A DNA stretch of 64,000 bases from Neolewinella persica DSM 23188 (lineage in GTDB: Bacteria; Bacteroidota; Bacteroidia; Chitinophagales; Saprospiraceae). Every line of letters starts with the position of its first letter. Within the stretch, counting starts at the first letter, position 1. A program made the position numbers and the translations under genes. The notes below the pieces were generated by a model, which made no database searches, was not told the origin of the DNA, and was given only the letters and a program-made list of their open reading frames with translations. Below, one piece after another: positions 623 through 64,000 of the stretch. The stretch lies in NCBI RefSeq assembly GCF_000373105.1, contig NZ_KB890413.1, positions 22,041-86,040 on the forward strand, read 5' to 3'.

Positions 623-1969
623 ATGAAACCTTCCATCCCTAAAGGAACCCGTGATTTCCTCCCCGCCGAAGTACGCCGTCGTGATTACATTTTTGAGGTA
701 ATTCGCAAGCATTTCCGTCGGTTCGGCTACCAGCCGATCGAGACACCGGTGATGGAGAATTTAGAAACCCTGACCGGTAAATACGGAGAAGAAGGTGATA
801 AGCTATTGTTCAAGGTGTTGAACAACGGTGATTTTTTGGGGAAAGCCAATGCGGAGGACCTGGCGAATAAGGACAGCAACAAGGTCCTCTCCAGCATCAG
901 TAAGCGCGGCCTGCGGTACGATCTCACGGTTCCGTTTGCGCGCTACGTAGTGATGCACCAAAACGACCTGGCCTTCCCCTTCAAGCGCTACGCCATCATG
1001 CCCGTTTGGCGGGCAGACCGGCCGCAGAAAGGACGTTACCAGGAGTTTTATCAGTGCGACGCCGACGTGGTGGGCTCAGAAAGCCTACTCTATGAAGCGG
1101 AGCTGACACAGCTGCTCGACGGCGTGTTCCACGACCTGGGCCTAAAGGCGGTTATCCGACTCAACAACCGTAAAATTCTGGCTGGGCTGGCGGAAATTGC
1201 GGGTATGGCCCACAACATGATGGACATGACCATCACGATCGATAAGTTGGATAAGATTGGCTGGGAGAAAGTCTCGGAAGAACTGGGTAACCGGGGCGCG
1301 GACGCAGGTGCCATAAACGTTATTAAGCAATTTCTGGACGCCACCAACCTGGCGGACGTAGCGCCGCTCCTTGCCAACAGCGAAGTCGGCCAGCAAGGCA
1401 TTGCCGAATTACAGGAAGTCTTTGACCTCATCGCTTCCCAACCCACCAACAACCGCATCGAATTCGACGTCACCCTGGCCCGCGGCCTCAACTACTACAC
1501 CGGGGCCATCTGGGAAGTAGCCGTCGATACCGACGCGCCCGGACAGGAAAGCATCAAAATGGGCTCCATCGCCGGTGGTGGTCGCTACGCCGACCTTACC
1601 TCTATCTTTGGAATGAAGGACATGCCCGGCGTTGGCATCAGCTTCGGCGCTGAGCGCATCTATGATGTACTCGAAGAGCTCGACGCCTTTCCGGCAGACG
1701 CTGCAGAAGACTTGCAGTACCTGCTGATTTGCCTCGACGATGAAGCGCTGGCCCACGGCTTCGGACTCGTCTCCCGCCTGCGCGCCAGAGGCGTGCACGC
1801 TGATCTTTACCCAAAGGCCGCCAAGTTGAATAAGATGATGAAGTATGCGGATCAGCGCAATGCGCCGAAGGTGGTGATTATTGGTAGCCGGGAAGCGGAG
1901 AGTGGGGAGTACTCCGTTAAGACTATGGCGACGGGAGAACAGAGGATGGTTAATGAAAAGGAATTTTAG
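623..1969 (+). CDS. hisS: histidine--tRNA ligase
   Basis: Cytoplasmic class II aminoacyl-tRNA synthetase charging tRNA-His. Length (448 aa) is normal for the family. N-terminal 'KGTRDFLP' is at 7-14, motif 2 with the FYQCD segment at about 120-151, the histidine-specific 'LARGLNYYTG' at 285-294, and motif 3 'GVGISFGAERI' at 336-346. The anticodon-binding domain follows to the C-terminus. Residues 225-230 (GADAGA) in the insertion domain are encoded by a reverse-orientation GC20 copy (1294-1311), a segment normally variable in this family. A TAnnTTTG promoter lies directly before the ATG. Confidence 0.97.
   Translation: MKPSIPKGTRDFLPAEVRRRDYIFEVIRKHFRRFGYQPIETPVMENLETLTGKYGEEGDKLLFKVLNNGDFLGKANAEDLANKDSNKVLSSISKRGLRYDLTVPFARYVVMHQNDLAFPFKRYAIMPVWRADRPQKGRYQEFYQCDADVVGSESLLYEAELTQLLDGVFHDLGLKAVIRLNNRKILAGLAEIAGMAHNMMDMTITIDKLDKIGWEKVSEELGNRGADAGAINVIKQFLDATNLADVAPLLANSEVGQQGIAELQEVFDLIASQPTNNRIEFDVTLARGLNYYTGAIWEVAVDTDAPGQESIKMGSIAGGGRYADLTSIFGMKDMPGVGISFGAERIYDVLEELDAFPADAAEDLQYLLICLDDEALAHGFGLVSRLRARGVHADLYPKAAKLNKMMKYADQRNAPKVVIIGSREAESGEYSVKTMATGEQRMVNEKEF
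1294..1311 (-). repeat. GC20 repeat copy inside hisS
   Basis: Reverse-orientation match to the 20-bp motif TTGCACCTGCGGCCGCGCCC (the GC20 family defined in this annotation). It reads GGGCGCGGACGCAGGTGC here and is translated as GADAGA. Confidence 0.7.
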
Positions 1970-1990
1970 TTCCTGATGTAACCTAACAAT

Positions 1991-2371: not shown

Positions 2372-2383
2372 GTAAGGGGAGTT

Positions 2384-3125: not shown

Positions 3126-3536
3126 TCGGTATTTTTTTCCCGTCGGCGTAAGCACGATAAGATGACCGTCCACTCTGCCTCCGGCAGCTGACAATAGGTA
3201 TGGATGAATTGGCGATAAGGATGCATCTTAGGCTTCAATAACATCTACCTAAAAAGGTTCAAGAAAGTCGATCAGTACGTGACAAAACACTGCTCCTCTC
3301 CTTGCCTTAATCCCCCTTCCCTGCACCTGCGGCCCCGCCCAACTTGACAGCTTTAAAAAGGTACACAAGCTATCCGCAGTCCCCTTTCCCACAAGGAAAT
3401 TAAGCCGCTGATTACTCTCATAGAGGGAGCACAGAGTACCATAATGCCATACCGAGCAAAGCGAGCATGATCGTGCAGCAGTCTATACATCTATCTCCTA
3501 CCAATCTGCCAAAGCCGCGCAGCGACCGTCTAAAAT
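3126..3536. other. intergenic region
   Basis: No gene seen. It contains one GC20 copy (3321-3340) and a GAGCAAAGCGAGCATG palindrome of the GCTCGC-type short repeats near 3455. Confidence 0.6.
3321..3340 (+). repeat. GC20 repeat copy
   Basis: CTGCACCTGCGGCCCCGCCC, preceded by the pyrimidine-rich tract typical of the intergenic copies. Confidence 0.8.
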
Positions 3537-4280
3537 TTACTTCTGGTAAATTTTAGACTTTGCCAACCCCCACTTATTCAACCGGTGCATCATACTAACG
3601 CGCAGCACCCCAAGCCCATACTTAGAGCTGCGGGCAAAGTTGATGGAGCTGGCCTCCTCGAAGTACTTGGTCGGGCAGGTCACCTCGGCGATGTCAAAAC
3701 CGTGGTAGATGATCTGGGAGAGCATTTCGTTGTCGAAGACGAAGTCATCGTCATTGGCGTTGAAGTTGATCGTTTCCAGTACTTCGCGGCTGAAGGCGCG
3801 GTAGCCGGTGTGGTATTCGCTGAGTTTGTAGCTGACGAGGAAGTTCTGCGTAGCCGTCAGGAAACGATTGGCGACGTACTTGTAGAGGGGCATCCCACCT
3901 TTAAGTGCGCCTTTACCCAGTATCCGGCTGGCCAGTACTACGGGGTACAGCCCTTCTCCAATGATGTTACACATCGTTGGGATCAGTAACGGCGTGTACT
4001 GGTAATCGGGGTGGACCATAATAACGATATCGGCACCAATCTCCAGCGCTTTATTGTACAAAGATTTCTGGTTACCGCCGTAGCCACGGTTGCGCGGGTG
4101 GGTGATCACGTGGTCGACGCCCAGCTGTTTGGCCAGGGCGGAGGTCTCATCTTTACTCGCATCGTCGCAGAGGATGACTTCATCTACCAGGTCGCGGGGG
4201 ACTTCTGCGTAAGTCTTCTCAAGGGTCAGGGCGGCGTTGTAGGCCGGCATCACGACGACCACTTTTTTGTCTTTGTACAT
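3537..4280 (-). CDS. family 2 glycosyltransferase (DPM1/dolichol-phosphate-like)
   Basis: 247-residue GT-A-fold transferase. 'VVVVMPAYNAALTLEKTY' is at the N-terminus, then 'ILCDDASKDET', 'HPRNRGYGGNQKSLYNKAL' and the divalent-metal motif 'MVHPDYQY'. The C-terminal half has 'EYHTGYRAFSREVLE' and the downstream acceptor-binding helices of the dolichyl/polyprenyl-phosphate sugar transferase branch. No membrane helix, so it probably acts at the cytoplasmic face of the membrane. The start at 4280 is supported by a TAnnTTTG element 8 bp upstream. Translating further upstream only reads through a GC20 copy (giving GAAAGARGR), which is spurious. Confidence 0.88.
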   Translation of the reverse strand: MYKDKKVVVVMPAYNAALTLEKTYAEVPRDLVDEVILCDDASKDETSALAKQLGVDHVITHPRNRGYGGNQKSLYNKALEIGADIVIMVHPDYQYTPLLIPTMCNIIGEGLYPVVLASRILGKGALKGGMPLYKYVANRFLTATQNFLVSYKLSEYHTGYRAFSREVLETINFNANDDDFVFDNEMLSQIIYHGFDIAEVTCPTKYFEEASSINFARSSKYGLGVLRVSMMHRLNKWGLAKSKIYQK

Positions 4281-4287
4281 ATTGGGG

Positions 4288-4295
4288 CAAAGGTA
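4288..4295 (-). promoter_or_regulatory. -7 promoter element for the glycosyltransferase
   Basis: TACCTTTG on the minus strand, 7 bp before the ATG at 4280. Confidence 0.6.
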
Positions 4296-4366
4296 ATAGA
4301 TTGGTGGATAGTTGGGAAGAGTAATGGGCAATTTGGGGTACCAGTCATTGCTCCTTGTCCTTCCCC

Positions 4367-4386
4367 TTGCACCAGCGGCCGCGCCC
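4367..4386 (+). repeat. GC20 repeat copy
   Basis: TTGCACCAGCGGCCGCGCCC, preceded by CTCCTTGTCCTTCCCC. Confidence 0.85.
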
Positions 4387-4692
4387 TGAATGTTTTTTTC
4401 TGCAAAAGCAACCATCAGACAGTATTCCCCGTGCAGCGGACGACAGTCCGATTACTCGCCCACCAATCCACCAAACCGTGCGCTACTTTCTAATTTCCTT
4501 CCCTTCACTTCAGTCTGGGATGGAGGTTCCGTATAAATTGTATTGAGCGACGTTATCCCGCGGATACTTCATCCGAATATAGTCGCTGGGTTCCGTCTGG
4601 GCCACAAAGTTGTTAGGTTTTGACAGAAGAACAGGGCTATTCAAGACTATTTGGTTTTTAGGGGAGGTTTTCACTTCATTGCTACTCCACCG

Positions 4693-4716
4693 TATCTTTG
4701 CACCCGCGTCCGCGCC
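4693..4716 (+). repeat. GC20 copy overlapping a -7 promoter match
   Basis: TATCTTTG followed directly by the GC20 core variant CACCCGCGTCCGCGCC. This is the only copy where the pyrimidine tract also makes a perfect TAnnTTTG. It lies about 95 bp upstream of mtaB and could be its promoter. Confidence 0.65.
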
Positions 4717-4718
4717 TT

Positions 4719-4790: not shown

Positions 4791-4793
4791 AAT

Positions 4794-6140
4794 ATGTCTA
4801 ACTTCGGAACCGTTTCCTTCTACACCCTAGGCTGCAAGCTCAACTACAGCGAGACTTCCGCCATCGGCCGCCAGTTTACCGAAGCGGGCTACCAGGCCGT
4901 AGAGTTTGGCGAGGGCTCGGATGTGGTGGTGATCAACACCTGCTCGGTGACGGATTTTGCCGACCGCAAATGCCGGAACATCGTGCGACGTGCATTAGGC
5001 GCGAACGCAGGTGCAAAAATTGTTGTCGTAGGCTGTTATGCGCAGTTGAAACCCGAAGAAATTGCCGACATCGAAGGCGTAGATCTCGTCCTTGGAGCAG
5101 CAGAGAAATTCCGGATTCTGGATTACATCGACGGCATCAGTACCGGAGCCGGCAAAGGGATGGTCCGGGCCGGCGAAGTGAAAGAAGCCGATACCTTTAT
5201 TAGCAGCTTTAGCTTCGGGGACCGGACGCGCTCCTTCCTCAAAGTGCAGGATGGCTGCGACTACAAATGTACCTTCTGCACCATCCCGCTGGCGCGGGGC
5301 AAAAGCCGCAGCTCCACTGTGGAGCAGGTGGTAGCCGATGCTAAAGCGATCGCCACCAAGGGTGTGAAAGAGGTTGTCCTCACCGGCGTCAACATCGGTG
5401 ATTTCGGCAACGGCACTTCCGTCATCGAGGGCGAACGCCCCCGCAAGGAAGCCCTGTTCTCCGACCTTGCTGCCGCGCTCGACGAAGTAGAAGGCATCAC
5501 CCGTTTCCGCATCTCCAGCATCGAGCCGAACCTCTGCACCAACGAACTGATCGACTTTGTGGCCAACAGCCAGCGGTTTGCGCCACATTTTCACATGCCG
5601 TTGCAGTCTGGCAACAACAAACAGCTGGCCCGGATGCGCCGCCGCTACAAGCGGGAGCTCTACGCTGAGCGCGTGGCTCACATCCGCAAAGTGATGCCTC
5701 ACGCCTGCATCGGCGTGGACCTAATCGTCGGGTTCCCCGGCGAAACGAAGGAGGATTTTCTGGAGACCTACAAATTCGTCCAGGAACTACCGGTGGATTA
5801 CTTCCACGTATTTACCTACTCCGAGCGTGCCAATACCCCGGCCGCGGAGATGGATGGGGTGGTCCCCATGGCGGAGCGGAAGCGCCGCAATAAAATGCTG
5901 GGTATTCTGAGCGAGAAGAAAAAGCGGGCGCATCAGGAACGGTACCTCGGCGAAGTACGGCCAGTATTGCTGGAGAAATCCAAAACTGACGGGGTGCTGC
6001 ACGGGTTCACCGACAACTACGTCAAGGTTTCCTTCCCGGCGGAGGACAGCTGGGTGAATCATTTGGTGGAGATGAAGTTGGGGGGTGTTAATGCGGAGGG
6101 ATTGGTGACGGCAACGGTAGCGGAGCACGTTAATCTTTAA
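4794..6140 (+). CDS. mtaB: tRNA t6A37 methylthiotransferase
   Basis: Radical SAM methylthiotransferase that adds 2-methylthio to N6-threonylcarbamoyladenosine-37 of tRNAs. The UPF0004 domain carries Cys14 (TLGCKLN), Cys50 (NTCSVT) and Cys81 (GCYAQ) for one 4Fe-4S cluster. The radical SAM cluster is C155-x3-C159-x2-C162. 'MPLQSGNN' and a C-terminal TRAM-like tail follow. Length (448) and the 'TLGCKLNYSET' start are MtaB-type rather than MiaB or RimO. Residues 69-74 (GANAGA) are encoded by a GC20 copy in the loop before 'KIVVVGCYAQ'. The stop codon overlaps the next gene's ATG by one base, suggesting translational coupling. Confidence 0.93.
   Translation: MSNFGTVSFYTLGCKLNYSETSAIGRQFTEAGYQAVEFGEGSDVVVINTCSVTDFADRKCRNIVRRALGANAGAKIVVVGCYAQLKPEEIADIEGVDLVLGAAEKFRILDYIDGISTGAGKGMVRAGEVKEADTFISSFSFGDRTRSFLKVQDGCDYKCTFCTIPLARGKSRSSTVEQVVADAKAIATKGVKEVVLTGVNIGDFGNGTSVIEGERPRKEALFSDLAAALDEVEGITRFRISSIEPNLCTNELIDFVANSQRFAPHFHMPLQSGNNKQLARMRRRYKRELYAERVAHIRKVMPHACIGVDLIVGFPGETKEDFLETYKFVQELPVDYFHVFTYSERANTPAAEMDGVVPMAERKRRNKMLGILSEKKKRAHQERYLGEVRPVLLEKSKTDGVLHGFTDNYVKVSFPAEDSWVNHLVEMKLGGVNAEGLVTATVAEHVNL
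4998..5016 (-). repeat. GC20 repeat copy inside mtaB
   Basis: GGCGCGAACGCAGGTGCAA, translated in the same frame as the hisS copy to give GANAGA. Confidence 0.7.
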
Positions 6141-8270: not shown

Positions 8271-8291
8271 TTGCATCCTGCGACCGCGCCC
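8271..8291 (+). repeat. GC20 repeat copy (21 bp variant)
   Basis: TTGCATCCTGCGACCGCGCC plus C. One extra T after GCA; the same GCATCCTGC variant recurs at 34533 and 46035. Confidence 0.75.
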
Positions 8292-9720: not shown

Positions 9721-9740
9721 CTGCACCTGCGACCCCGCCC
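9721..9740 (+). repeat. GC20 repeat copy
   Basis: CTGCACCTGCGACCCCGCCC, preceded by TTGCTCCTTTTATCCTTCCT, the best example of the pyrimidine arm. Confidence 0.85.
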
Positions 9741-11227: not shown

Positions 11228-11890
11228 ATGAAGCACCTCCTCCCCATTTTATGCCTGTTTTTCTCCACGCTTTCCGCACAGGAGGTGTTCATCGATTTCC
11301 AACCGGTTATGGGAGGAAAGGCACTGGTAATTGACGATACGGGCGCGGCCGCAGGTGCAGAGAAAGTTGTGGAAGCAATGCGTTTTTATCTGTCAGATGT
11401 TGCTTTGCGGAGCGAAGGCCAAGTCGTCTCTACCTCCGATAAGCGCCATCATCTGCTCGATGCAGCGCAGCCGGAGACGATGCGCTTCCCACTGTCCGTT
11501 CCCGCAGGAGTAGCATACGATGAGCTTAGTTTCACCCTGGGCGTCGACAGCCTGACCGCCGCTTCCGGCGCTTTCGGCGGCGATCTCGACCCCACCAATG
11601 GCATGTACTGGACGTGGCGCAGCGGCTACATCAACTTCAAGCTGGAGGGCACCGCACCGGAGTGCCCGGCCCGGAAAAACCGGTTCCAGTTCCACGTTGG
11701 TGGTTTTCAGGGGCCGTTTAATTCGGAGCGAGCGGTTAGCCTGGGGGTCAGCCCCGGTAAGACCATCCCCGTAAAAATTGACCTGGACCGTTTTTTTGAC
11801 CAAATAAACCTGGCCGCAACCTATCAGATCATGAGTCCGGATGACCGGTCAGCGACAATAGCAGACCTCTTGGTAGAACTCTTCAGGTAA
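11228..11890 (+). CDS. mbnP: MbnP family copper-associated periplasmic protein
   Basis: 220 residues with a signal peptide ending at 'LSAQ' (about 18). Family hallmarks are 'MRFYLSDVAL', 'FTLGVDS', 'GGDLDPTNGMYWTWRSGYINFKLEG' and 'FQFHVGGFQGPF'. In characterised MbnP/MbnH pairs the MauG-like MbnH oxidises a Trp of MbnP to kynurenine and MbnP binds copper; the Trp-rich 'MYWTWRSG' is the obvious counterpart. Residues 39-44 (GAAAGA) come from a near-perfect GC20 copy inserted just before the conserved 'RFYLSD' strand. A matching mbnH lies 2.9 kb downstream. Confidence 0.88.
   Translation: MKHLLPILCLFFSTLSAQEVFIDFQPVMGGKALVIDDTGAAAGAEKVVEAMRFYLSDVALRSEGQVVSTSDKRHHLLDAAQPETMRFPLSVPAGVAYDELSFTLGVDSLTAASGAFGGDLDPTNGMYWTWRSGYINFKLEGTAPECPARKNRFQFHVGGFQGPFNSERAVSLGVSPGKTIPVKIDLDRFFDQINLAATYQIMSPDDRSATIADLLVELFR
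11341..11359 (-). repeat. GC20 repeat copy inside mbnP
   Basis: GGGCGCGGCCGCAGGTGCA, identical to the consensus over 19 bp and in frame (GAAAGA). Confidence 0.85.
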
Positions 11891-15936: not shown

Positions 15937-17391
15937 ATGCGTCGTTTGTTTACCCTGCTTTTACTAACCTTTCGTTGCACCAGCGTCCGCGCCCTAAGTA
16001 AAGGAATATGGGGAGAAAAGGGAAAAGGAAGAAAAGCCATCCTGGTGCCCTTACTCCTTTTGGCCTTTTCCCCTTTACTCCGTGCCCAATTAAGCCCTGC
16101 CATTACCAGTTGGTTACAAAACAACACAGAAACCGGCACCTTTTACATGGCCGGAAACTCGACATTGCTTGAGAATAATGTGTTGGTCAATTGTCAGAAA
16201 GTGGAGTACACCGACGACTTCGTTTACGTGACCGCTACCGGAGTACCCGCCTACCCTACCGGCCCGTTTCAGGATCGTAATCCTTCCCAGGCGGAAAATC
16301 AGGATGGCATCTATAAAATTCCGCTAAACCCGGTCATGAATACCGGTACACCGGACAACACCGTGGGTGGTAATATCGGTATCTTCATCAACGGTGTGGC
16401 CCTGTTTGACTACCGCGACGGTGTCGCCTGGAACCCCCAAACCAACGCCCTGTGCGGTGGGCCCGGCAACGACCGCTGCCCCGGCGGGCCGCAAACCACG
16501 CAGGCCTGGAACCGCGATGCCGTACCGGCAGAAAAGGAGGGTTTTGACTGCGCCAAAGGCCACCCCGCCATGGGCAACTATCACCACCACCAGAACCCTT
16601 CTGCCTTCAAACTGGACCTACAGGTAACTTCCGATGTTTGTAACCTCTACGACGCCGAAGGCCTCTACGCTATTGACAGTACGACCCACGCGCCGCTGAT
16701 TGGTTTTGCCTACGATGGCTTCCCCATCTACGGTGCTTACGCCTACAAAAATGCAGACGGCACCGGTGGCATCACCCGCATGAAATCCGGCTACAACCTA
16801 CGTGACATTACCGAGCGAACTACCCATGCTGACGGCACCGATGTTGCTGACGGACCAGCCATCAGCGCTCAATATTTCCTTGGCTATTTCAGGGAAGACT
16901 ATGGTTACGTGGCCTCTCCCAACGAGGACGTGCTCGACGTACACAACGGCCGTTTCTGCGTCACGCCGGAGTATCCGGGGGGCACCTACGCCTATTTTGC
17001 CACGGTTAATGAAGACTGGACCTCCGCTTATCCCTATGCCGTTGGGCCGACTTTCTACGGCGAATTCGAACGGCGGAACGTAACCGGAGTAACCGAGCCT
17101 ACAACGATATATGACGGCACCACAGCCGTAGAAGGCTTTGCCGACGATGCGGCCATCACTGTTTTCCCTAACCCGACAGCGGACCTGATCGCCGTGCAAT
17201 TACCCGGCCTGGTCGGACAGGATTTCAACGTGGAGCTTCGTGACGCCAGCGGACGACTGGTGAAGCAAAAGATCATCCGTACCGGACAGACAATCGCCTA
17301 CTTCGACACCCAGACACTTTACCGAGGCATGTATTTTGTGCGGATCAGTGGCGGCGGAAAAGAAGTTACGCGAAAGGTCGTAGTGCAGTGA
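15937..17391 (+). CDS. T9SS-secreted YHYH domain protein
   Basis: 484 residues from the ATG at 15937. The YHYH core has 'CAKGHPAMGNYHHHQNPSAF', 'HAPLIGFAYDGFPIYGAY' and 'DVHNGRFCVTPEYPGGTYAYF'. It ends in a type A T9SS sorting domain ('VFPNPTADLIAVQLPG ... LYRGMYFVRISGGGKEVTRKVVVQ'), so unlike its two lipoprotein relatives it is predicted to be exported to the cell surface or medium. The signal peptide is unusual: two hydrophobic blocks ('LFTLLLL' and 'LVPLLLLAFSPLLRAQ') are separated by about 30 polar/basic residues encoded by a GC20 copy and a purine-rich tract. Last gene of the MbnP/MbnH/YHYH locus. Confidence 0.85.
   Translation: MRRLFTLLLLTFRCTSVRALSKGIWGEKGKGRKAILVPLLLLAFSPLLRAQLSPAITSWLQNNTETGTFYMAGNSTLLENNVLVNCQKVEYTDDFVYVTATGVPAYPTGPFQDRNPSQAENQDGIYKIPLNPVMNTGTPDNTVGGNIGIFINGVALFDYRDGVAWNPQTNALCGGPGNDRCPGGPQTTQAWNRDAVPAEKEGFDCAKGHPAMGNYHHHQNPSAFKLDLQVTSDVCNLYDAEGLYAIDSTTHAPLIGFAYDGFPIYGAYAYKNADGTGGITRMKSGYNLRDITERTTHADGTDVADGPAISAQYFLGYFREDYGYVASPNEDVLDVHNGRFCVTPEYPGGTYAYFATVNEDWTSAYPYAVGPTFYGEFERRNVTGVTEPTTIYDGTTAVEGFADDAAITVFPNPTADLIAVQLPGLVGQDFNVELRDASGRLVKQKIIRTGQTIAYFDTQTLYRGMYFVRISGGGKEVTRKVVVQ
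15975..15994 (+). repeat. GC20 copy in a signal-peptide coding region
   Basis: TTGCACCAGCGTCCGCGCCC, translated as CTSVRA. The purine-rich tract that follows pairs with the pyrimidine-rich DNA coding the second hydrophobic block. Confidence 0.7.
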
Positions 17392-23377: not shown

Positions 23378-23397
23378 GGGCGCGGTCGCAGGTGCAA
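23378..23397 (-). repeat. GC20 repeat copy (left half of an inverted pair)
   Basis: GGGCGCGGTCGCAGGTGCAA; pairs with the copy at 23516 to bound a 157-bp segment. Confidence 0.85.
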
Positions 23398-23515: not shown

Positions 23516-23534
23516 TTGCACCTGCGGCCGCGCC
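23516..23534 (+). repeat. GC20 repeat copy (right half of an inverted pair)
   Basis: TTGCACCTGCGGCCGCGCC, preceded by CTCCTCCAGTCTCCCT. Confidence 0.85.
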
Positions 23535-23596
23535 ACCTCCGAAAAACTCGGCGTAGCTATAAAATCAAACTCCTGCCCAACCCAAACCCGCCTAAA

Positions 23597-28433: not shown

Positions 28434-28453
28434 GGGCGCGGCCGCAGGTGCAA
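28434..28453 (-). repeat. GC20 repeat copy, perfect consensus
   Basis: GGGCGCGGCCGCAGGTGCAA, followed by GGGAAGGAA; lies just upstream of the phosphoesterase. Confidence 0.9.
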
Positions 28454-33219: not shown

Positions 33220-34599
33220 TTACCTGACCAAAACGCCTCCCTTAAACACCGCCCTCACTTTCCGCAAAGCAGAAATCTCCGCTTGTGGGTTTCCCTGCAC
33301 CACCACCAGGTCCGCCAGCAGGCCGGGTTTGATCTGGCCGCGGTCCGCCAGTTCGAAGACGGCAGCGTTACCCGCGGTGACGGACCGGAGGACGGCCAGG
33401 GGCGTCATGCCGTAGTCGACCATCATCTCCAGTTCGCGGGCATTATCTCCGTGGGGGAAGACGCCGACGTCGCCTCCGGCGGCGATGGTAACGCCGACTT
33501 CCAGCGCCAGGGCGAAGGACTTTTGTTTGTTGACGATCCGGTCGGTATCCGGATCTACGCCCTTTTTCCAGCCCTTGTACTGCTCGATGGCATCACCGGC
33601 GGCGAGGGTCGGGCAGAGCGCGACGCCGTGTTTCTTCATCAGTTCGAAGACTTCACGGGTACCGCCGTCGCCATGCTCGATGGTGGCGACTCCGGCCATC
33701 ACCGCGCGGCGCATCCCCTCCGCCGTAGCGGCGTGGGCCACCACCTGCCGGCCGCTGCTGTTGGCGATCTCCACCACCAGTTCGAGTTCGCGCTGCGTGT
33801 AGGTCGGCATGGCCATTTTGTTGGCGCCCCAGCGGTAATCGGCGTAGACTTTGATGACGTCGGCGCCCCGTCCAATTTGGTCACGGACAACGCGGGTGAG
33901 CTCATCGAGCCCGTCGGCAGTTTCCGCGCCGAGGGGTACCGTTACATGGTCGGCAAAGCCTTTGGGACCATAACTGCCGGTGGTCACCATGGCTTTTCCG
34001 GCCACGATCATGCGTGGCCCCTGGATGACGCCTTTTTCGATGGTTTCCTTTAACCCGACGTCGACATAGCCGGCACCTTCAGAGCCGAGGTCGCGGACGG
34101 TAGTGAAACCAGCACGCACCGTCTTTTCTGCGTGAATTCCTCCCCTGATCGCCCTTTCGGCGTAAGACTCTTTGAGTACCTGGTCGTTCCAGTCCGTTTC
34201 ATTGTAGGGGTGCAACAGCAGGTGGCTGTGGCCTTCGATCATGCCGGGAAGGAGCGTGCCGTCGGGGTAATCGACCGTAGTACAGCCAGCGGGAACGTCC
34301 ATGTTTTTCTCGGTGTCAAAAGCAGCGATTTGATCGTTCAGGACGAGGACGACCTTCCCCTGTTGGAAGTTTTCGCCATCGAACACCCGGGCTGGGCGGA
34401 TCAGGGTACAGTCCTGGCCCAGTAAAGGGGTAAGGGAGGAAAGGAATAAAGGGAGGAGCCAAATGAGTAAGCCCAGTGATGGAAGGACGGGGCCTTTCCT
34501 TTCTCCTTTTATTCCTTTTGCCTCTTTTTCGGGGGCGGGGCCGCAGGATGCAGGCGAGGTAGGAAGGAGCAAGGAGGGGCGATATTGAAAAGGGAGCAT
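33220..34599 (-). CDS. exported metal-dependent amidohydrolase (prolidase-like)
   Basis: 459 residues. Amidohydrolase superfamily: 'DGTLLPGMIEGHSHLLLHPYNE' (HxH metal site), 'DVIKVYADYRWG' (Lys ligand region), 'VVAHAATAEGMRRAVMAGVATIEHGDGG' (two metal His) and 'IAAGGDVGVFPHGDNARELEMMVDYGMTP' (Asp). Close to Xaa-Pro dipeptidase/imidazolonepropionase-like enzymes; the substrate is uncertain. The N-terminus is odd. The only possible start gives a 43-residue polar lead, containing a GC20 copy, before the hydrophobic 'LLIWLLPLFLSSLTPLLGQ' signal core. It parallels the signal peptide of the YHYH protein at 15937. Confidence 0.85.
   Translation of the reverse strand: MLPFQYRPSLLLPTSPASCGPAPEKEAKGIKGERKGPVLPSLGLLIWLLPLFLSSLTPLLGQDCTLIRPARVFDGENFQQGKVVLVLNDQIAAFDTEKNMDVPAGCTTVDYPDGTLLPGMIEGHSHLLLHPYNETDWNDQVLKESYAERAIRGGIHAEKTVRAGFTTVRDLGSEGAGYVDVGLKETIEKGVIQGPRMIVAGKAMVTTGSYGPKGFADHVTVPLGAETADGLDELTRVVRDQIGRGADVIKVYADYRWGANKMAMPTYTQRELELVVEIANSSGRQVVAHAATAEGMRRAVMAGVATIEHGDGGTREVFELMKKHGVALCPTLAAGDAIEQYKGWKKGVDPDTDRIVNKQKSFALALEVGVTIAAGGDVGVFPHGDNARELEMMVDYGMTPLAVLRSVTAGNAAVFELADRGQIKPGLLADLVVVQGNPQAEISALRKVRAVFKGGVLVR
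34533..34552 (-). repeat. GC20 copy in a signal-peptide coding region
   Basis: GGGCGGGGCCGCAGGATGCA. On the coding strand it is preceded by CTCCTTGCTCCTTCC and followed by AAAAGGAATAAAAGGAG. Confidence 0.75.
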
Positions 34600-34800: not shown

Positions 34801-34818
34801 TTGCACCTGCGGCCGCGG
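34801..34818 (+). repeat. GC20 repeat copy
   Basis: TTGCACCTGCGGCCGCGG, with the last bases changed; preceded by CTCCCAAAGCCTTCCC. Confidence 0.8.
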
Positions 34819-35165
34819 CAAAAATGAATGATGGGATATTAAGAAGGTGTGAATTAGAGAACATCCGGCAAAAAAATCATCGTTTGGAAGTAGGGTAAAT
34901 CCAAGATTAAGGATTATTACCACGGAGAGAAGGCCCTTTCAGCCAGCAGCCGGTTTGCATAAGCAGTGGTCAGTCTTTAAATTTACCAGGCTTTTAAGTA
35001 GAAATACTCCCCTTGCCAACGTAAACTAATCCACACGATCGTTATTGGTCGGACTTCTCCCCCAGTTGTTTTCACTTTGTTCACCTAAGGATCTGCAAAA
35101 GAATAACCTCCCAATCTCAACCTGGGGCGTTATTCTTTTACGGACCCTGACGCAATCAATGCCTT

Positions 35166-38637: not shown

Positions 38638-38656
38638 GGGCGCGGTCGCGGGTGCA
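38638..38656 (-). repeat. GC20 repeat copy (left of inverted pair)
   Basis: GGGCGCGGTCGCGGGTGCA, followed by CTGGAAGGTAGAAAGGAGCA; with the copy at 38730 it bounds 109 bp. Confidence 0.8.
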
Positions 38657-38729
38657 CTGGAAGGTAGAAAGGAGCAGGGCCTCGACTTCTAGTGGCCCCC
38701 TAAACCCTGCTTCCACAATCCTTTGCAAA

Positions 38730-38746
38730 GCACCTGCGGCCGCGCC
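38730..38746 (+). repeat. GC20 repeat copy (right of inverted pair)
   Basis: GCACCTGCGGCCGCGCC, preceded by CTGCTTCCACAATCCTTTGCAA-type sequence. The rest of 38548-38885 has only GTTGTCGG-type octamers and no gene. Confidence 0.8.
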
Positions 38747-38885
38747 TAAAAGACGCTTAAAACAGCCCTAAATGCTCAACCGGAGGATCGCTGCGGTTGA
38801 TTGACAAGTCTTTACAATGATTTACGTTTGAGATACCCGTATCACTAGTAGCAGGTGATAGATTCGTGGACAAACAGACCATTCC

Positions 38886-42114: not shown

Positions 42115-42133
42115 TTGCACCTGCGTTCGCGCC
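42115..42133 (+). repeat. GC20 repeat copy
   Basis: TTGCACCTGCGTTCGCGCC; faces the copy at 42151 tail to tail, giving a 56-bp hairpin. Confidence 0.8.
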
Positions 42134-42150
42134 TAATTAGTAGCACTTTA

Positions 42151-42170
42151 GGGCGCGGCCGCAGGTGCAA
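42151..42170 (-). repeat. GC20 repeat copy, perfect consensus
   Basis: GGGCGCGGCCGCAGGTGCAA, 21 bp beyond the stop of the aldehyde dehydrogenase gene. The hairpin with 42115 could terminate the catabolic operon. Confidence 0.9.
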
Positions 42171-43627: not shown

Positions 43628-43765
43628 GTTGTGGGGTTCGCTGCGCTCACATTGCAATAGTTGCAGGATTCGCTACGCTCATGTTTCAAAAGTTGCAGGA
43701 TTCGCTGCGCTCATGTTGCAATAGTTGCAGGTTCGCTACGCTCAAGTTGCAGTTGTTGCAGGGTT
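43626..43765. repeat. four imperfect tandem copies of a TTCGCTGCGCTCA unit
   Basis: Units of about 30-35 bp alternating GTTGCAGGATTCGCTACGCTCA and CATGTTGCAATA, just upstream of the dehydrogenase gene and inside the operon. Confidence 0.8.
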
Positions 43766-45833: not shown

Positions 45834-45857
45834 TATTTTTATTTCTCAGCGGTGTAC

Positions 45858-45977
45858 CAAATGTAATGGTCGGTAATAAAGTTCGGTTGAGGGTGTCCCC
45901 ACCCGAATTAATCAGGGGTCAACCTTTTCGGGTGGGGACACCCTCAACCAAGTATTTACCAGTCACCATTACATTTG
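45858..45977. repeat. 120-bp long palindrome
   Basis: Perfect inner arms of 21 bp (45885-45905 / 45929-45949, with GTGTCCCCACCCG) and perfect outer arms of 13 bp (45858-45870 / 45965-45977). The short stretches between are also nearly complementary; the loop is about 23 nt. Lies 24 bp upstream of the acetaldehyde dehydrogenase start. Confidence 0.9.
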
Positions 45978-46034
45978 ATTCATCGCCTGTTTTTCAGCTT
46001 AAGTATAGCCATTTTACGAAAGTTTTAATGCCAA

Positions 46035-46054
46035 GGGCGCGGACGCAGGATGCA
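46035..46054 (-). repeat. GC20 repeat copy (left of inverted pair)
   Basis: GGGCGCGGACGCAGGATGCA, followed by GTGTAGAGGATAAAGGCAAA. Confidence 0.8.
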
Positions 46055-46226: not shown

Positions 46227-46246
46227 TTGCACCTGCGACCGCGCCC
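46227..46246 (+). repeat. GC20 repeat copy (right of inverted pair)
   Basis: TTGCACCTGCGACCGCGCCC, preceded by CTGCTCCCTTCCAACCCTTT. Confidence 0.85.
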
Positions 46247-46801: not shown

Positions 46802-46821
46802 TTGCACCTGCGGCCGCGCCC
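46802..46821 (+). repeat. GC20 repeat copy, perfect consensus
   Basis: TTGCACCTGCGGCCGCGCCC, preceded by TTGCTCCTTTATCCTTTC. Confidence 0.9.
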
Positions 46822-47758: not shown

Positions 47759-48066
47759 GGTGAAGTTTACCCACAAGTCTCAAAATCGTTGTTTTAACCA
47801 AGAGCAAGATTACAGTTACGGTCGTTGGGAAGCTACTACACGGCAATTGGGTTCTCACAGAGGGTAGCGCAGAGGGAGGCACGGAGGGGGCACAGAGTGG
47901 ATTTATGGAGTAGCAAGCACTAAAATTCCCTATGCCAAAGATATCCACACACGAGCGCAAGCGAGCAGAGATGTCTCCCCTCTCCGGGGGAGAGGGGTCG
48001 GGGGAGAGGCGCACGAGCGGAGCGAGCACCACATTCGTCTCCGTAAAGTTGTGGGTAAACTTCACC
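47759..48066. repeat. 18-bp inverted repeat, arms 47759-47776 and 48049-48066
   Basis: GGTGAAGTTTACCCACAA and its exact inverse enclose 272 bp of repeats. Confidence 0.85.
47849..47900 (+). repeat. dispersed repeat (GGTTCTCGCAGAGGG family), copy 4
   Basis: GGGTTCTCACAGAGGGTAGC then GCAGAGGGAGGCACGGAG and GGGCACAGAG. Confidence 0.7.
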
Positions 48067-53787: not shown

Positions 53788-53806
53788 GGGCGGGGCCGCA
53801 GGTGCA
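53788..53806 (-). repeat. GC20 repeat copy
   Basis: GGGCGGGGCCGCAGGTGCA followed by GGGGAAGTTGGACAGGAGCA. Confidence 0.85.
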
Positions 53807-53906
53807 GGGGAAGTTGGACAGGAGCAAAGTTGTATCGGCAACGATGCGGACTACTTCTCTTTAAGGGGAGCAATGGGCAAGAAGTAATACAACACCCAAA
53901 ACTATT

Positions 53907-54366: not shown

Positions 54367-54440
54367 TAGCGCGAGGGTGACTCGAACACCCGACCTCAGG
54401 ATTATGAATCCTGCGCTCTAACCGGCTGAGCTACCGCGCC
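54367..54440 (-). tRNA. tRNA-Met (anticodon CAT)
   Basis: 74-nt cloverleaf on the minus strand: acceptor GGCGCGG with TCGCGCT, D-arm GCTCAGCCGGTTAGAGC, anticodon stem CAGGA/TCCTG with loop TTCATAA, T-arm GGGTG TTCGAGT CACCC, discriminator A, no encoded CCA. The lack of an initiator-type mismatched first pair and of the GGG/CCC anticodon stem favours elongator Met; a CAT tRNA-Ile is less likely. Confidence 0.9.
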
Positions 54441-54542: not shown

Positions 54543-54561
54543 TTGCACCTGCGGCCCCGCC
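54543..54561 (+). repeat. GC20 repeat copy
   Basis: TTGCACCTGCGGCCCCGCC, preceded by CTGCTCCTTTGTCCTTCCT. Confidence 0.85.
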
Positions 54562-54697
54562 TCCTACTCCTGCTTCCCCAGAGCAAGACCGGGGCCATAA
54601 AATATTACCCAAATAAAGCGCCCCAGGCTCAGTGATTCTGTAATTGAACTGAATCGGGGTAATATTCCACCTCCCGAAACGATGTTATCTTAGAAGC

Positions 54698-59148: not shown

Positions 59149-59173
59149 AGGCGGGGTTAGCTTATTGGGGACG

Positions 59174-59293: not shown

Positions 59294-62200
59294 ATGCGTT
59301 TTCTCTCCAGCTTTTGCGCCACTATCTTTCTGCTACTTCCCTGGGCTCTCACGGCCCAGTGTGGCCTTAGTGTCAATGCTGGCCCCGACGCTTTATTCTG
59401 CCCCGGTGGCGGCAGCACCCAACTAAATGGCAATATTTCCGGGCCGGGGTTGTCCGGCTTCTCGTGGAGTCCGACGGCCGGGCTCAGCGACCCCAACATC
59501 CTTAACCCGGTAGCTACCGTCGGTGGCCCAATGACCTATACCCTCACCGCTGAAGTTTTTGACCCTTCCACCAATAGCATCGTCAATGGTGACTTTTCGG
59601 CGGGTGTTTCGGATTTCACCACCGATTATAACCCTGGCTCCGGCGGAACCTTCGGCTTACTTTCCGACGAGGGGGAGTACGTCGTCACTACCAACAGTAA
59701 CCTGACGCATACCAACTTTGGGAACTGCCCCGACCACACCGGCGGAGGAAACATGATGGTCGTCAATGGCTCAGCCATCCCAAACGAAAACGTTTGGTGC
59801 CAAACCGTGGCAGTAACTCCTAATACCACCTACGCCTTTAACGCCTGGTTACAGTCCGTTAACCCCGACAACCCCGCCAGCCTGCAATTTTCAGTCAACG
59901 GCACACTGCTCGGCAATACCTTCCAGGCCAGTTCCTCCAACTGCCAATGGCGGGAGTTCACCGAAAGCTGGAGTTCCGGCAGCGCCGTTTCTGCCGAAAT
60001 CTGCATCGTCAATCAAAACACCCAGCCAAGTGGCAATGACTTTGCCATCGACGACATCTTCTTCGGGGAAGTATGTACCCAAACCGATGAGGTCAATCTT
60101 GAGGAGGTCTTCCTCGACGCCGACGCCATCCCTACCGCCGATCTGCTCTGCGACGGCTTCGGCGGGGTCTCCACCATGCTCGATGGCAGCAATTCCTCCG
60201 GTGGCCCCAACACCTTCTACCAGTGGACCACCACCGATGGCAACATCGTCTCCGGTGCCACCACAACCACTCCCACCGTGAACGAACCAGGCACCTACGT
60301 ACTCACCGCCAGGTACGACGACGGCGTGGCCTTTTGTACCGACCAGGTCACCGTAGTAGTCAACCCCAACAGCGGTAATATCCCTACGGCGGATGCCGTC
60401 ATCCTGGGGCCCATCAGTTGTTTCGACGATATGGGCATTTTGGGCATCGGCGGTTCTTCGGTGGGCAATGACTTCATCTACGACTGGTCGACCACCGATG
60501 GCAACATCGTTTCCGGTGCCACCGAAACAGAAGTTTTCGTGGATCAGACCGGCACTTACCAACTCCTGGTTACCAATACCATCAGCGGGTGTTCGGAAAC
60601 CGCCACGGTTATGATTACCGACAACCGGCAAGATCCAAACATTGACATTGTCGGCCCGGCACCGCTCACCTGCAACGACCCGACGCTGGAACTCGACGGC
60701 TCCGGCTCCGACGGCGGCACAGATTTTTCGGCCAGCTGGGCTACGACCGACGGCAACATCGTTGCTGGTGGCAACACCCTCTCCCCTACCATTGACTCGG
60801 CCGGCACCTATCAACTGACGGTCACTAACGACGTCACCGGCTGTTCAGCGACCCGCTCCGTAATGGTCACCGTTAACCAACCCCAACTCACCGCCGCTAT
60901 TGCAACGCCGGATACGCTGGACTGTAACCTGACGCAGCTTCGCCTGGACGGTTCCGGTAGCCCTGGCAGCACCTTTGCCTGGACGACGACCAATGGCAAT
61001 ATCGTTAGCGATGCGGCCACCGCAACCCCCTTGATCGACGCGCCGGGGGAATACGAATTATTGATCCGCGACGCTGCCTCGGGGTGCGAAAGCAGGGCGC
61101 CCATCACCGTGCGCAGCGCGGCCATACGGCCGTCCGTTGCTCTTCAAAGTCCCCCACCCTTCACCTGCGGCCGCGCCCAAATCATGCTGGACGCCACGGC
61201 CAGTACCATTGGTACCGACATTTCCTACACCTGGACAGCAGCCAATGGCGGCGGCATCGTGAGCGACACCAATACCCTGCAACCAACCGTGACGGGGCCG
61301 GGAGATTACACGCTGCGCATCGTCAATAACGACAATGGTTGCTCCCGGGACACGACCATCACCATCGGTGAAAACATCACACCACCCGACGCCGATGCCG
61401 GGGCCGGATTTACGCTAAGCTGCAGTAGTCCAGCCGATACACTCGACGGCACAGCCTCCAGCCAGGGGGGCGCTTTTGGCTATGTATGGACGACGGCCGA
61501 CGGCCTGCTCCTGAGCGACACCAATTCCTTACGGCCCGTTATTGGCAGGGCCGGCACGTACCAAATCAGGGTACTTGATTCCGTCAACAGCTGCTTTTCG
61601 GTCGCTGAAGTAACGGTGCTGGAAGATAATAATGCCCCCGCCGTTACCATCGCCCTGCCAGACACGCTCACTTGTCGGAATCCCACCCTCACGCTCAATG
61701 CAGCAGGTTCCGACTCCGGAGCGGACCTGACCATACGCTGGAACACCAGCGACGGGAACTTCGTCATGGGTACCGACGGCCTTAGCCCCACCATCGACGC
61801 CCCCGGCACCTACCAACTTACCGTCACTGACGAAACCAACGGCTGCCCTTCTACTCGCAACGTAACCGTTGCAGAAAACGTCGTAGCTCCCGCCACCGAA
61901 GCGGGCGATCCGTTGATTTTAACCTGCCGCGATCAGGAAGGAAGACTCCTGGCTACAAACCCCGGGGCCGGGTATTCTTACGCCTGGACCGGAAGTGATA
62001 CCCCCCCCTTAACTGATGCCAACACACTGTCCCCACTGGTCAATAGCGCCGGCCGCTACTTTCTCGAAATTACCAACGACAATAACGGTTGTACCGCCAT
62101 CGACAGTGTTGACGTAAGTGCGGACCAGGATAGCCCGGTATTGACAATTGCGCCCGGTCTCAGCGTGCTGACCTGCACCGACACCTCCCTACAACTTAAC

Positions 62201-64000
62201 CCGGGAAGCACTTCTATCCCAGGCTTTAGCCATGTTTGGACCACTCCGAATGGTAGCATCACCAGCCCCGACACCCTCCCGGAAATTTCCATCAACGAGC
62301 CCGGAGCATACACCTTATTGCTTACGAATGAGCGCAACGGTTGTGAAAGTGATAATACCATTTTGATCACGCAAGACACTACTTTGCCCACCGTTGAGGT
62401 GCTGCCAGCGGCCACGCTAAACTGTGACGTAGAGGAGGTAACATTGAATCCTGGAAATTCCGACCAGGGCGATCCGTTCTCGGTCAGGTGGACAACTAAT
62501 GATGGTATGATCCGACCGGGTACGGACCGAAACGACGCAGTGGCGGAACTGGGTGGGACGTACCGGCTGACCATTACCAACTCGGTTACGGGGTGCGTTG
62601 ATTCGGCGGAAGTTGTCGTATTACAAGATACTGTTCGCCCGGTGGCGGTCATCGCCGCCCCCATTGAGTTAACCTGTTTTAACCGGGCACAAAACCTGAA
62701 TGGATCGGCCTCCAGTCAGGGGCCTGCAATTGCTTACGAATGGTCAACCAACAACGGCAATATCTCCGGTGGAAATAACCAACAAACGGTGGTGGTCAAT
62801 GCGGCGGGCCGCTATCTGCTCACCGTCCGAAATACTATAAATGCCTGCGTAAGCAAGGATAGTGTGGCAGTAATTGCCAACCAACCAGCTCCTCCGGCAG
62901 ATGCGGGAACGGGCGGCCTGCTTACCTGCCTGGATTCTACCATTGTTTTGGGCGGGGCCGCAGGTGCAGCGGACGGTTTGAGCTATGCCTGGACGACCAT
63001 CAGCGGCGGCACCCCGGCAGCGGCGAACGTACCGCAGACAACCGCTACCGAGCAGGGAATGTATGAACTTCGGGTCACCAACGACAGCACCGGATGCTTT
63101 GCGCTCGACACCGCCATTGTCCGGCTCGACCGGGCTACGCCCAATGCCGTGATCCCTCCCGTCGGGCAACTTGATTGCGAAGTGCTGCAGCAAACGTTGG
63201 TCATCGGCATTCAACAACCTAACCTTACGTTTCTACCTTCCTGGAGTACGGCTGACGGAAACATTCTCGATCCTGCCGAAGGTCAGGAAATCAGGGTAAA
63301 CCAGGGCGGCACTTATCGGTTGTTGATGGTCAATCCAGAAAATGGTTGTCGCGATTCTACGGAATTGGTAGTAAGCCAGGATACCCTGCGGCCGCTGGCC
63401 GCCATTGCCCGGCCATTGGAGTTAACGTGTCGCACGCCCACCCAACAGCTTGACGGTACAGCTTCCAGCCAGGGTGCGGGGTTCAGCTATGCGTGGTCGA
63501 CAACGGACGGGAATTTCACGGGCATTACTAACCAACTGAACGCCACCGTCGACGCGGCAGGACGCTACCGGCTGACCGTAAGGAATATCGGTAACGCCTG
63601 TGAGCGAACCGACATCGTTGACGTCGTCGTTAACCAGACGCCGCCTCCCGCAGACGCAGGAACTGAAAGCCTGCTTACCTGCTTGGATACCGTCGCCATT
63701 TTGGGCGGACCCGCAGGTGCAATGGATGGTTTGAGCTACACCTGGACCTCCCTCAGCGGCGGTACACCGGCAGCGACGGACGTACCACGAACCACCGCCA
63801 ACGAGCAAGGAACGTACCAACTTCGGGTCACCAACGACAGCACCGGTTGCTTTGCGCTCGACACCGTAGTGGTAGGGGCTAACCTCGTTGCCCCGAATGC
63901 TTCAGTGCCTTCCGTCAGTCCACTTAATTGTACAGTGCGACAACGCACCCTAACGGCGGCGCCTCCGGCGCCCGGGCTAACCTACCTGCCCACCTGGAGG
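59294..64000 (+). CDS. giant PKD/Ig-like repeat surface adhesin, 3' truncated by window end
   Basis: 1569 codons open to the window edge. Signal peptide 'FLSSFCATIFLLLPWALTAQC' (about 1-22). The first about 260 residues hold a beta-sandwich, carbohydrate-binding-like region ('NGDFSAGVSDF ... FAIDDIFFGEVC'). Then about 16 repeats of 80-90 residues follow with unit L-x-C, L-D-G-S, W-T-T-x-x-G-x-I, G-x-Y-x-L-x-V-x-N, x-G-C; the two Cys probably form one disulphide per repeat. From 62666 a three-repeat block repeats at 753 bp (251 aa). Three GC20 copies are embedded. A gliding-motility/T9SS C-terminal domain is expected beyond the window. Confidence 0.88.
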   Translation, partial: MRFLSSFCATIFLLLPWALTAQCGLSVNAGPDALFCPGGGSTQLNGNISGPGLSGFSWSPTAGLSDPNILNPVATVGGPMTYTLTAEVFDPSTNSIVNGDFSAGVSDFTTDYNPGSGGTFGLLSDEGEYVVTTNSNLTHTNFGNCPDHTGGGNMMVVNGSAIPNENVWCQTVAVTPNTTYAFNAWLQSVNPDNPASLQFSVNGTLLGNTFQASSSNCQWREFTESWSSGSAVSAEICIVNQNTQPSGNDFAIDDIFFGEVCTQTDEVNLEEVFLDADAIPTADLLCDGFGGVSTMLDGSNSSGGPNTFYQWTTTDGNIVSGATTTTPTVNEPGTYVLTARYDDGVAFCTDQVTVVVNPNSGNIPTADAVILGPISCFDDMGILGIGGSSVGNDFIYDWSTTDGNIVSGATETEVFVDQTGTYQLLVTNTISGCSETATVMITDNRQDPNIDIVGPAPLTCNDPTLELDGSGSDGGTDFSASWATTDGNIVAGGNTLSPTIDSAGTYQLTVTNDVTGCSATRSVMVTVNQPQLTAAIATPDTLDCNLTQLRLDGSGSPGSTFAWTTTNGNIVSDAATATPLIDAPGEYELLIRDAASGCESRAPITVRSAAIRPSVALQSPPPFTCGRAQIMLDATASTIGTDISYTWTAANGGGIVSDTNTLQPTVTGPGDYTLRIVNNDNGCSRDTTITIGENITPPDADAGAGFTLSCSSPADTLDGTASSQGGAFGYVWTTADGLLLSDTNSLRPVIGRAGTYQIRVLDSVNSCFSVAEVTVLEDNNAPAVTIALPDTLTCRNPTLTLNAAGSDSGADLTIRWNTSDGNFVMGTDGLSPTIDAPGTYQLTVTDETNGCPSTRNVTVAENVVAPATEAGDPLILTCRDQEGRLLATNPGAGYSYAWTGSDTPPLTDANTLSPLVNSAGRYFLEITNDNNGCTAIDSVDVSADQDSPVLTIAPGLSVLTCTDTSLQLNPGSTSIPGFSHVWTTPNGSITSPDTLPEISINEPGAYTLLLTNERNGCESDNTILITQDTTLPTVEVLPAATLNCDVEEVTLNPGNSDQGDPFSVRWTTNDGMIRPGTDRNDAVAELGGTYRLTITNSVTGCVDSAEVVVLQDTVRPVAVIAAPIELTCFNRAQNLNGSASSQGPAIAYEWSTNNGNISGGNNQQTVVVNAAGRYLLTVRNTINACVSKDSVAVIANQPAPPADAGTGGLLTCLDSTIVLGGAAGAADGLSYAWTTISGGTPAAANVPQTTATEQGMYELRVTNDSTGCFALDTAIVRLDRATPNAVIPPVGQLDCEVLQQTLVIGIQQPNLTFLPSWSTADGNILDPAEGQEIRVNQGGTYRLLMVNPENGCRDSTELVVSQDTLRPLAAIARPLELTCRTPTQQLDGTASSQGAGFSYAWSTTDGNFTGITNQLNATVDAAGRYRLTVRNIGNACERTDIVDVVVNQTPPPADAGTESLLTCLDTVAILGGPAGAMDGLSYTWTSLSGGTPAATDVPRTTANEQGTYQLRVTNDSTGCFALDTVVVGANLVAPNASVPSVSPLNCTVRQRTLTAAPPAPGLTYLPTWR
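61161..61178 (+). repeat. GC20 copy inside the adhesin
   Basis: TCACCTGCGGCCGCGCCC, translated FTCGRAQ, where the Cys replaces the conserved Cys of the L-T-C start of a repeat. Confidence 0.75.
62950..62968 (-). repeat. GC20 copy inside the adhesin
   Basis: GGGCGGGGCCGCAGGTGCA, translated GGAAGA in the LDG-S loop position. Confidence 0.75.
63703..63722 (-). repeat. GC20 copy inside the adhesin (duplicated block)
   Basis: GGGCGGACCCGCAGGTGCAA, translated GGPAGA; exactly 753 bp after the copy at 62950, so it was copied with the block. Confidence 0.7.

Follow-up and report, generated by a model that had tools for sequence, protein, structure and literature searches.

The repeated motif described here is best compared with three kinds of known element. 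The DNA-uptake sequences of the Pasteurellaceae (USS) and Neisseriaceae (DUS) are present as hundreds to thousands of asymmetric copies in both orientations, occupy permissive coding positions, form species dialects and some inverted pairs, and evolve in place. REP/BIME elements with RAYT are short, numerous, mostly intergenic and likewise found as inverted pairs. Chi hot spots are polar, non-palindromic sites that are read directionally; in E. coli there is roughly one site per 4–5 kb, both Chi and KOPS are strand-biased in that species, and known Chi sites are much shorter than 40 bp. For the uptake sequences an even spacing has been reported (Karlin et al., cited in PMC1939737). They are ca. 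9–12 nt long with a mean spacing of ~1–1.5 kb, and in H. influenzae their orientation does not significantly affect uptake (PMC1939737).

Neolewinella belongs to a different phylum from the bearers of USS and DUS. In N. persica DSM 23188 we analysed a stretch of 64,000 nucleotides (the window), for which the original prediction had listed about 26 copies of a GC-rich 20-bp motif, 14 forward and 12 reverse. With TTGCACCTGCGGCCGCGCCC as the search pattern exactly this number is recovered at ≤5 mismatches (14 plus, 12 minus), while at ≤3 mismatches there are 23 matches, where 100 dinucleotide shuffles yield 0.01 on average and never more than 1, a control that covers the ≤3-mismatch count. Three copies, at 8272, 34533 and 46035, have one extra base (GCATCC). 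The copies in the window are:

1294..1313, minus: core motif, antisense within the HisRS-like gene (623-1969, plus), encodes GADAGA
3321..3340, plus: core motif between genes; G116 shows no counterpart
4367..4386, plus: core motif on the 5' margin of ORF 3537-4415 (minus), probably between genes; G116 shows no counterpart
4698..4717, plus: core motif lying upstream of the MtaB-like gene; same place in G116, G151, G152 and G163
4997..5016, minus: core motif within the MtaB-like gene (4794-6140, plus), encodes GANAGA
8272..8291, plus: one-base-insertion variant, between ORFs
9721..9740, plus: core motif preceded by a full pyrimidine tract, between genes
11341..11360, minus: core motif, antisense within gene 11228-11890 (plus), encodes GAAAGA; the G116 orthologue keeps it (lenient scoring)
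15975..15994, plus: core motif, in-frame signal peptide (...LLLTFRCTSVRA)
23378..23397, minus: core motif, left-hand copy of a -+ pair with 23516
23516..23535, plus: core motif, right half of the -+ pair with 23378
28434..28453, minus: exact core motif, intergenic
34533..34552, minus: one-base-insertion variant near the 5' end of ORF 33220-34599 (minus)
34801..34820, plus: core motif, intergenic
38638..38657, minus: core motif, left-hand copy of a -+ pair with 38728
38728..38747, plus: core motif, right half of the -+ pair with 38638 (90 bp)
42115..42134, plus: core motif, left-hand copy of a +- pair with 42151 (36 bp)
42151..42170, minus: exact core motif, right half of the +- pair with 42115
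46035..46054, minus: one-base-insertion variant, left of 46227 in a -+ arrangement
46227..46246, plus: core motif, intergenic
46802..46821, plus: exact core motif preceded by a full pyrimidine tract, between genes
53788..53807, minus: core motif, intergenic
54543..54562, plus: core motif between genes, close to a tRNA gene (54367-54440, minus)
61159..61178, plus: core motif, sense, within long ORF G000:C1 81334-87708
62950..62969, minus: core motif, antisense, within the same long ORF
63703..63722, minus: weak copy (3 mismatches) in the same long ORF, flanking bases like those at 62950

The abundance is neither peculiar to the window nor a matter of composition, the two outcomes that had been named as counting against the motif. 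Genome-wide there are 328 exact copies of the 18-mer (0 of the reversed pattern) and 1,153 strict degenerate copies of TGCACCnGCGnCCnCGCC (593 plus, 560 minus; 0 for the reversed control), so that one asymmetric motif is strongly over-represented in both orientations, as with DUS and USS. The unit extends beyond its core, as had been proposed: among 108 sites from 400 kb a pyrimidine-rich stretch extends ~25 nt upstream and an A-rich stretch lies downstream of the core, and TGCT is found 17–23 nt upstream in 168 of the 294 sites of a 1.2-Mb sample, placing a TGCTCC-like box about two helical turns before the TGCACCnGCGnCCnCGCC core. We are dealing with a maintained genomic signal of this genus, composed of an asymmetric core of ~18 bp (longer than DUS or USS), a pyrimidine tract, an upstream box and an A-tract.

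The motif is enriched in most of the 21 Neolewinella genomes compared, with near-zero counts in G157 and G159; an alternative dialect in these two was looked for, and no strong 12-mer was found in 53 and 80 kb. In other genera, 4 of 147 sampled genomes hold the motif, with one copy each. Species dialects, a trait of DUS and USS, are present here as well: G156 carries a concerted one-base dialect, with A at position 12 in 90% of its sites compared to C in 94% of those in G000 (the genome of the window), and position 6 is C in 59% of G150 sites but T in 78% of G000 sites. A suspected strand bias in G150 was refuted by 13 plus and 15 minus sites in 160 kb.

Sites are concentrated between genes (177 of the 294 observed against 55.8 expected in the 1.2-Mb sample), the other 117 lying inside genes predicted by a purpose-written hexamer caller, for which reason gene starts are rough. 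Coding copies use four main reading frames and both strands. It is scarcely credible that the motif reflects conservation at the protein level, as the stereotyped end of signal peptides (LCTSVRAQ): an in-frame screen is passed by 10 of 110 sites from 400 kb and by 3 of 7 in the G153 and G154 stretches, but the other 100 fail, and in the frame concerned the core varies at certain first and second codon positions and hardly at the third ones. Intergenic and antisense copies contradict this reading outright.

Under lenient scoring (lower weights at motif positions 0, 6 and 10–13), coding copies are kept at orthologous codons in 28 of 31 comparisons, or 28 of 30 within motif-bearing genomes, a set in which two uncultured-bin pairs (L2_Bin, Cobin246) and possibly some G116 and G151 pairs are ascertained because loci L029–L123 were fetched by the motif. 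An alignment gap falls within the 11 codons around the site in 8 of the 31 pairs, and in 7 of these the motif is still kept. Among genomes selected for showing the motif, its window is the most conserved of 427 six-codon windows in the MtaB-like gene (12 genomes) and ranks only 45th of 441 in the HisRS-like gene (7 genomes). From the HisRS-like alignment we set aside G164, a different gene with 34% identity and gaps, and G162, where the site is not covered. MtaB-like genes without the motif differ by substitutions with zero length change, G150 and G165 having distant relatives only. The coding copies thus combine in-place substitution with tolerance in permissive positions, as do DUS and USS. 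Intergenic sites turn over more than coding ones: the site upstream of the MtaB-like gene was found in 5 of 18 upstream stretches (the G164 contig stops there) and is also absent from motif-rich G156 and G166.

These data bear on the four options of the original prediction. The REP-like mobile unit is not supported; an uptake signal, a recombination or segregation motif and a protein-binding site are the candidates left. A dispersed mobile repeat (REP/RAYT-like or a MITE) would agree with the numerous copies, the intergenic preference, the inverted pairs, the wide occurrence of Y1 transposases and the faster intergenic turnover, and the base-by-base evidence of non-insertion comes from coding copies only, as an empty-site comparison of intergenic DNA with G157 met divergence too great for alignment. 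For the coding copies examined, however, this reading is already contradicted: they lie at orthologous codons, and unit insertion was not observed in the MtaB-like orthologues. By eye, the halves of the pairs share no sequence and the interiors of -+ pairs are unrelated, so that they do not form the terminal inverted repeats of a MITE. The suggested Y1/RAYT link proved inconsistent. Y1 transposases (PF01797) occur in 20 of the 21 genomes and do not follow the motif, with four matches in motif-poor G159. Of 10 Y1 loci examined, 3 have a copy nearby and 7 lack one within their ~3.3 kb, unlike the repeat-flanked genes of REP/RAYT systems. A mobile origin is therefore very improbable, the more so as the exclusion described below depends on orientation and applies to coding copies too.

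A further property is the arrangement of the copies, which are over-evenly spaced along 1.2 Mb of G000 at a mean of ~4 kb, wider than for USS and DUS. Same-orientation pairs closer than 3 kb number 16, compared to a mean of 65.3 (minimum 44) in 5000 orientation shuffles, and 8 compared to 27.7 (minimum 15) in four relatives; opposite orientations show no such avoidance. The exclusion holds among coding pairs (0 observed, 17 expected) and between coding and intergenic sites (6 observed, 53 expected), the expectation being half of the 6–12 kb pair count; in the exact-core subset (69 sites) there are 2 same and 4 opposite pairs below 3 kb, numbers too small for a test. Beyond 3 kb, same-orientation spacings are consistent with an exponential distribution whose mean was fitted (KS p 0.49). 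Neighbouring sites alternate in orientation (198 of 288), and of the pairs within 1.5 kb, 52 are divergent (-+) and 9 convergent (+-). Most close pairs are divergent and lie 59–398 bp apart, whereas the USS pairs of H. influenzae are abutting terminators. The site behaves as directional and is tiled separately for each orientation, and this orientation-specific exclusion suggests that the site itself is polar. As copies are often held in place across species and spaced per strand, the motif looks like a genome-wide address or uptake signal rather than a jumping element.

What has to be explained, then, is the DNA-level upkeep of fixed coding sites, together with dialects, even spacing and the ~3-kb same-orientation exclusion. 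Of the possible uses, we favour self-recognition in DNA uptake and transformation, of the DUS/USS kind, at a probability of roughly 0.45. What we infer beyond this is a sequence-specific reading protein, a role in uptake, and an orientation rule caused by directional or single-strand processing. The putative protein would read the site as duplex or as one given strand, DNA bearing it would be preferentially taken up or processed, and recombination would then spread and repair sites; an extra site of the same orientation within ~3 kb would be redundant and decay. Several points do not fit easily. A rule confined to the same orientation, observed here on spacing rather than on uptake itself, is not expected of classical USS because uptake in H. 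influenzae ignores orientation (PMC1939737), and no mention of such an exclusion was found in the available portions of the USS and DUS literature. For PF00437 (pilus/T2S ATPase), the one pilus part searched, the 21 genomes gave partial matches only, covering at most 84 of 370 positions at ≤25.5 bits and barely reaching the cut-off in 11 genomes, so a convincing pilus ATPase of the kind seen with USS and DUS was not found. ComEC is non-discriminating, since it occurs in motif-poor genomes as well. Single coding sites, kept in 28 of 30 cases, may be retained more often than expected from pure drive. In Neisseria, recent insertions lack DUS; here, sites are not rarer in windows of atypical composition, as judged from coding-hexamer typicality, with which they show no trend and which is a weak indicator of foreign DNA.

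The orientation rule and the lack of convincing pilus ATPases leave a near-equal rival, which we hold tentatively and rank behind uptake: a directional chromosome-maintenance site, that is, a polar, one-strand intracellular signal, either Chi-like (double-strand-break repair) or architectural and loop-anchoring. Each strand would need its own site per ~8 kb, a second one within 3 kb being redundant, and this would account for the same-orientation deficit in G000 and its relatives, its validity for coding copies, the exponential longer spacings, the alternation, the excess of divergent pairs and the longevity of individual coding sites. The density is similar to that of Chi, but the ~40-bp unit is far longer, has a dead zone and shows no replication-strand bias as judged by GC skew (Spearman 0.06; 32 blocks of 40 kb); the motif is almost missing from at least two members of the genus, odd for a maintenance element, and no candidate protein was identified. 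With a similar probability, the pattern may represent a new class of element, a per-strand directional address code with a ~3-kb same-facing dead zone, alternating orientation, clustering of divergent sites and dialects, read by a putative polar protein and, in its logic, a possible bacterial analogue of CTCF- or Chi-type sites. A transcription-linked role, as terminator, regulator-binding site or 5'UTR signal, is unlikely. Although 60% of the sites are intergenic and the regions separating divergent genes are the densest (68 sites in 59 kb, compared to 91 in 130 kb for co-directional and 19 in 35 kb for convergent genes), 117 of 294 lie within predicted genes, orientation is loosely tied to genes (42 same and 49 opposite in co-directional intergenic regions, 71 and 45 in coding sequences), the 32 -+ pairs are spread over all gene arrangements, and regulation predicts neither the over-even spacing nor the exclusion.

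If the uptake reading is true, this would be the third such case, from the Bacteroidota and seemingly with no pilus ATPases, which would imply independent evolution and offer a handle on a poorly known pilus-less uptake machinery. If the site works inside the cell, per-strand 3-kb spacing would amount to a new principle in how chromosomes are organised, one that could be tested in marine species available in culture.

There is a weak increase in site number with GC content (Spearman 0.24). As a raw count, the exact 18-mer is also present in 16 viral-contig stretches.

The motif, a 20-bp GC-rich directional word with an upstream pyrimidine tract, is present in the window exactly as often as the original prediction had counted it (26 at ≤5 mismatches, of which 14 are forward and 12 reverse), and at ≤3 mismatches there are 23 copies vs 0.01 in shuffles. 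In 400 kb, 108 sites give the core consensus TGCACC(T)GCG(G/T/A)CC(G/C)CGCC(C), with pyrimidine-rich upstream and A-rich downstream flanks. Sites were defined by a weighted mismatch of ≤2.0 to TGCACCTGCGGCCGCGCC, with positions 6, 10 and 13 weighted lower. In 1.2 Mb of the N. persica genome (G000; 7.08 Mb in 84 contigs, the window being C1:22041-86040) there are 294 sites, 151 on the plus and 143 on the minus strand, vs 1 for the reversed control. A TGCT box lies 17–23 nt upstream of the core, about two helical turns away, at 168 of these (68/117 coding and 100/177 intergenic sites).

Sites facing the same way avoid each other. Only 16 same-orientation pairs lie within 3 kb, vs 106 expected from uniform placement, and numbers are normal beyond that distance; opposite-orientation pairs show no depletion (115 vs 106 expected). 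When orientations were shuffled on the real positions 5,000 times, the mean number of such same-orientation pairs was 65.3 and the minimum 44. Four relatives taken together (G116, G150, G156 and G151; 130 sites) have 8 same-orientation pairs vs a shuffle mean of 27.7 and minimum of 15. The depletion affects coding (0 vs 17), mixed (6 vs 53) and intergenic pairs (10 vs 35), the expectation being half of the 6–12 kb count. Same-orientation spacings have a mean of 7,936 (sd 4,851), and those above 3 kb follow an exponential with a fitted mean. Adjacent sites face opposite ways in 198 of 288 cases vs a maximum of 174 in 5,000 shuffles, and neighbouring pairs closer than 400 bp comprise 32 divergent (-+), 5 convergent (+-) and 1 ++. 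No relation between site orientation and GC skew was found. An exception to the 3-kb rule within the window is the same-facing pair at 62950 and 63703 (the latter degenerate, with 3 mismatches), 753 bp apart in alike contexts of one long ORF, which is likely an internal duplication.

Spacing is also unusually even: merging at 700 bp leaves 249 loci with a CV of 0.595, vs means of 0.84 and 0.905 under uniform and intergenic-only placement with equal minimum distance, and none of the 400 draws of each was as low. The largest gap is 16.6 kb vs null means of 24–29 kb, and counts in 10-kb bins are under-dispersed (variance/mean 0.56).

Copies were counted per genome with the strict pattern TGCACCNGCGNCCNCGCC on both strands, using the reversed pattern as control (0 in 20 genomes, 1 in G158).

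Strict-pattern copies in N. persica (G000) and related genomes of the genus
High end: G000 1153, G151 714, G163 588, G164 550, G116 475
Next: G162 425, G166 416, G152 388, G150 355, G165 258
Middle: G006 168, G155 168, G158 113, G153 86
Low: G160 66, G161 58, G154 52, G156 28
Lowest: G167 12, G157 4, G159 2

Outside the genus, 4 of 147 genomes in a 150-genome family sample contain the motif, with a single match each. The few strict matches in G156 reflect a dialect, because a relaxed pattern (positions 6 and 10–13 free, one mismatch permitted) restores its density (29 sites in 120 kb, ~24 per 100 kb) to that of G000, G116 and G150 (26.5, 20.9 and 24.4 per 100 kb). The G156 core is nGCACC(T/C)GCGGCAGCGCC, and its MtaB and HisRS genes both have GCT at the codon matching the dialect base.

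Judged from aligned sequences, coding copies are not insertions. Those in two window genes occupy orthologous codons in many genomes:

623-1969 (+), HisRS-like gene, motif at 1294
4794-6140 (+), MtaB-like gene, motif at 4997

In MtaB, 13 of 19 listed genomes have GGC GC(G/A/T) or GGC GGG, then AAC GCA GGT GC(A/G/C); these codons are partly altered in G161 and G006, and carry substitutions at the same length in G153, G154, G157 and G159. Usable orthologues were available in the retrieved DNA for 12 of the 116 coding sites in 1.2 Mb, and the motif was retained in 28 of 31 comparisons under lenient scoring, the losses being in G150, G152 and motif-poor G157. The coding motif is maintained at the DNA level, not the protein level. 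The 42 coding copies with good support in 400 kb use the reading frames sense-0 (13), sense-2 (10), sense-1 (1), antisense-0 (10), antisense-2 (8) and antisense-1 (0). The peptides commonly encoded are of tolerant kinds, namely signal-peptide ends (LCTSVRAQ), Ala-Pro linkers (APAAAP), GAxAGA and AxPQVQ.

An in-frame signal-peptide screen of 400 kb was passed by 10 of 110 copies. About a tenth of copies in G000, including window 15975, thus pass as in-frame signal-peptide ends (LCTSVRAQ, LCTCGRAQ), and the DNA signal may therefore have shaped part of the secretome.

Turnover is greater at intergenic sites, because the site upstream of MtaB is patchy and the window sites 3321 and 4367 had no counterpart found in G116. 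The former recurs in G116, G151, G152 and G163, where the adjoining DNA is dissimilar by eye, and is absent from the 13 other upstream stretches, one of which (G164) is incomplete. No empty intergenic site could be aligned.

By title, the motif was not found described in the open-licence literature (subscription papers and preprints being outside this scope), including that on Neolewinella genomes and the listed matches on Lewinella repeats or uptake. Nor did that literature yield, by title, anything on uptake sequences in Bacteroidetes/Bacteroidota, or any work on natural transformation or competence in Saprospiraceae or on Chi/AddAB in Bacteroidetes.

Other repeats were seen in the window:

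43628-43765, a stretch of ~130 bp that recurs many times in G000, in places arranged head to tail in ~124-bp arrays, and has GTTGCAGGATTCGCT-like units; missing from the orthologous, shorter G157 stretch
45849-45986, a repeat containing a long, nearly perfect hairpin (GGTTGAGGGTGTCCCCACCC...GGGTGGGGACACCCTCAACC) and related copies on both strands elsewhere in G000
47948-48029, of which up to ~80 bp have numerous matches, mostly at 82–89%, in several genomes of the genus

Further frequent words in G150:C1:1-160000 are a CCCGATAGCTATCGG-like palindrome and TAGGCGGTAGGC.
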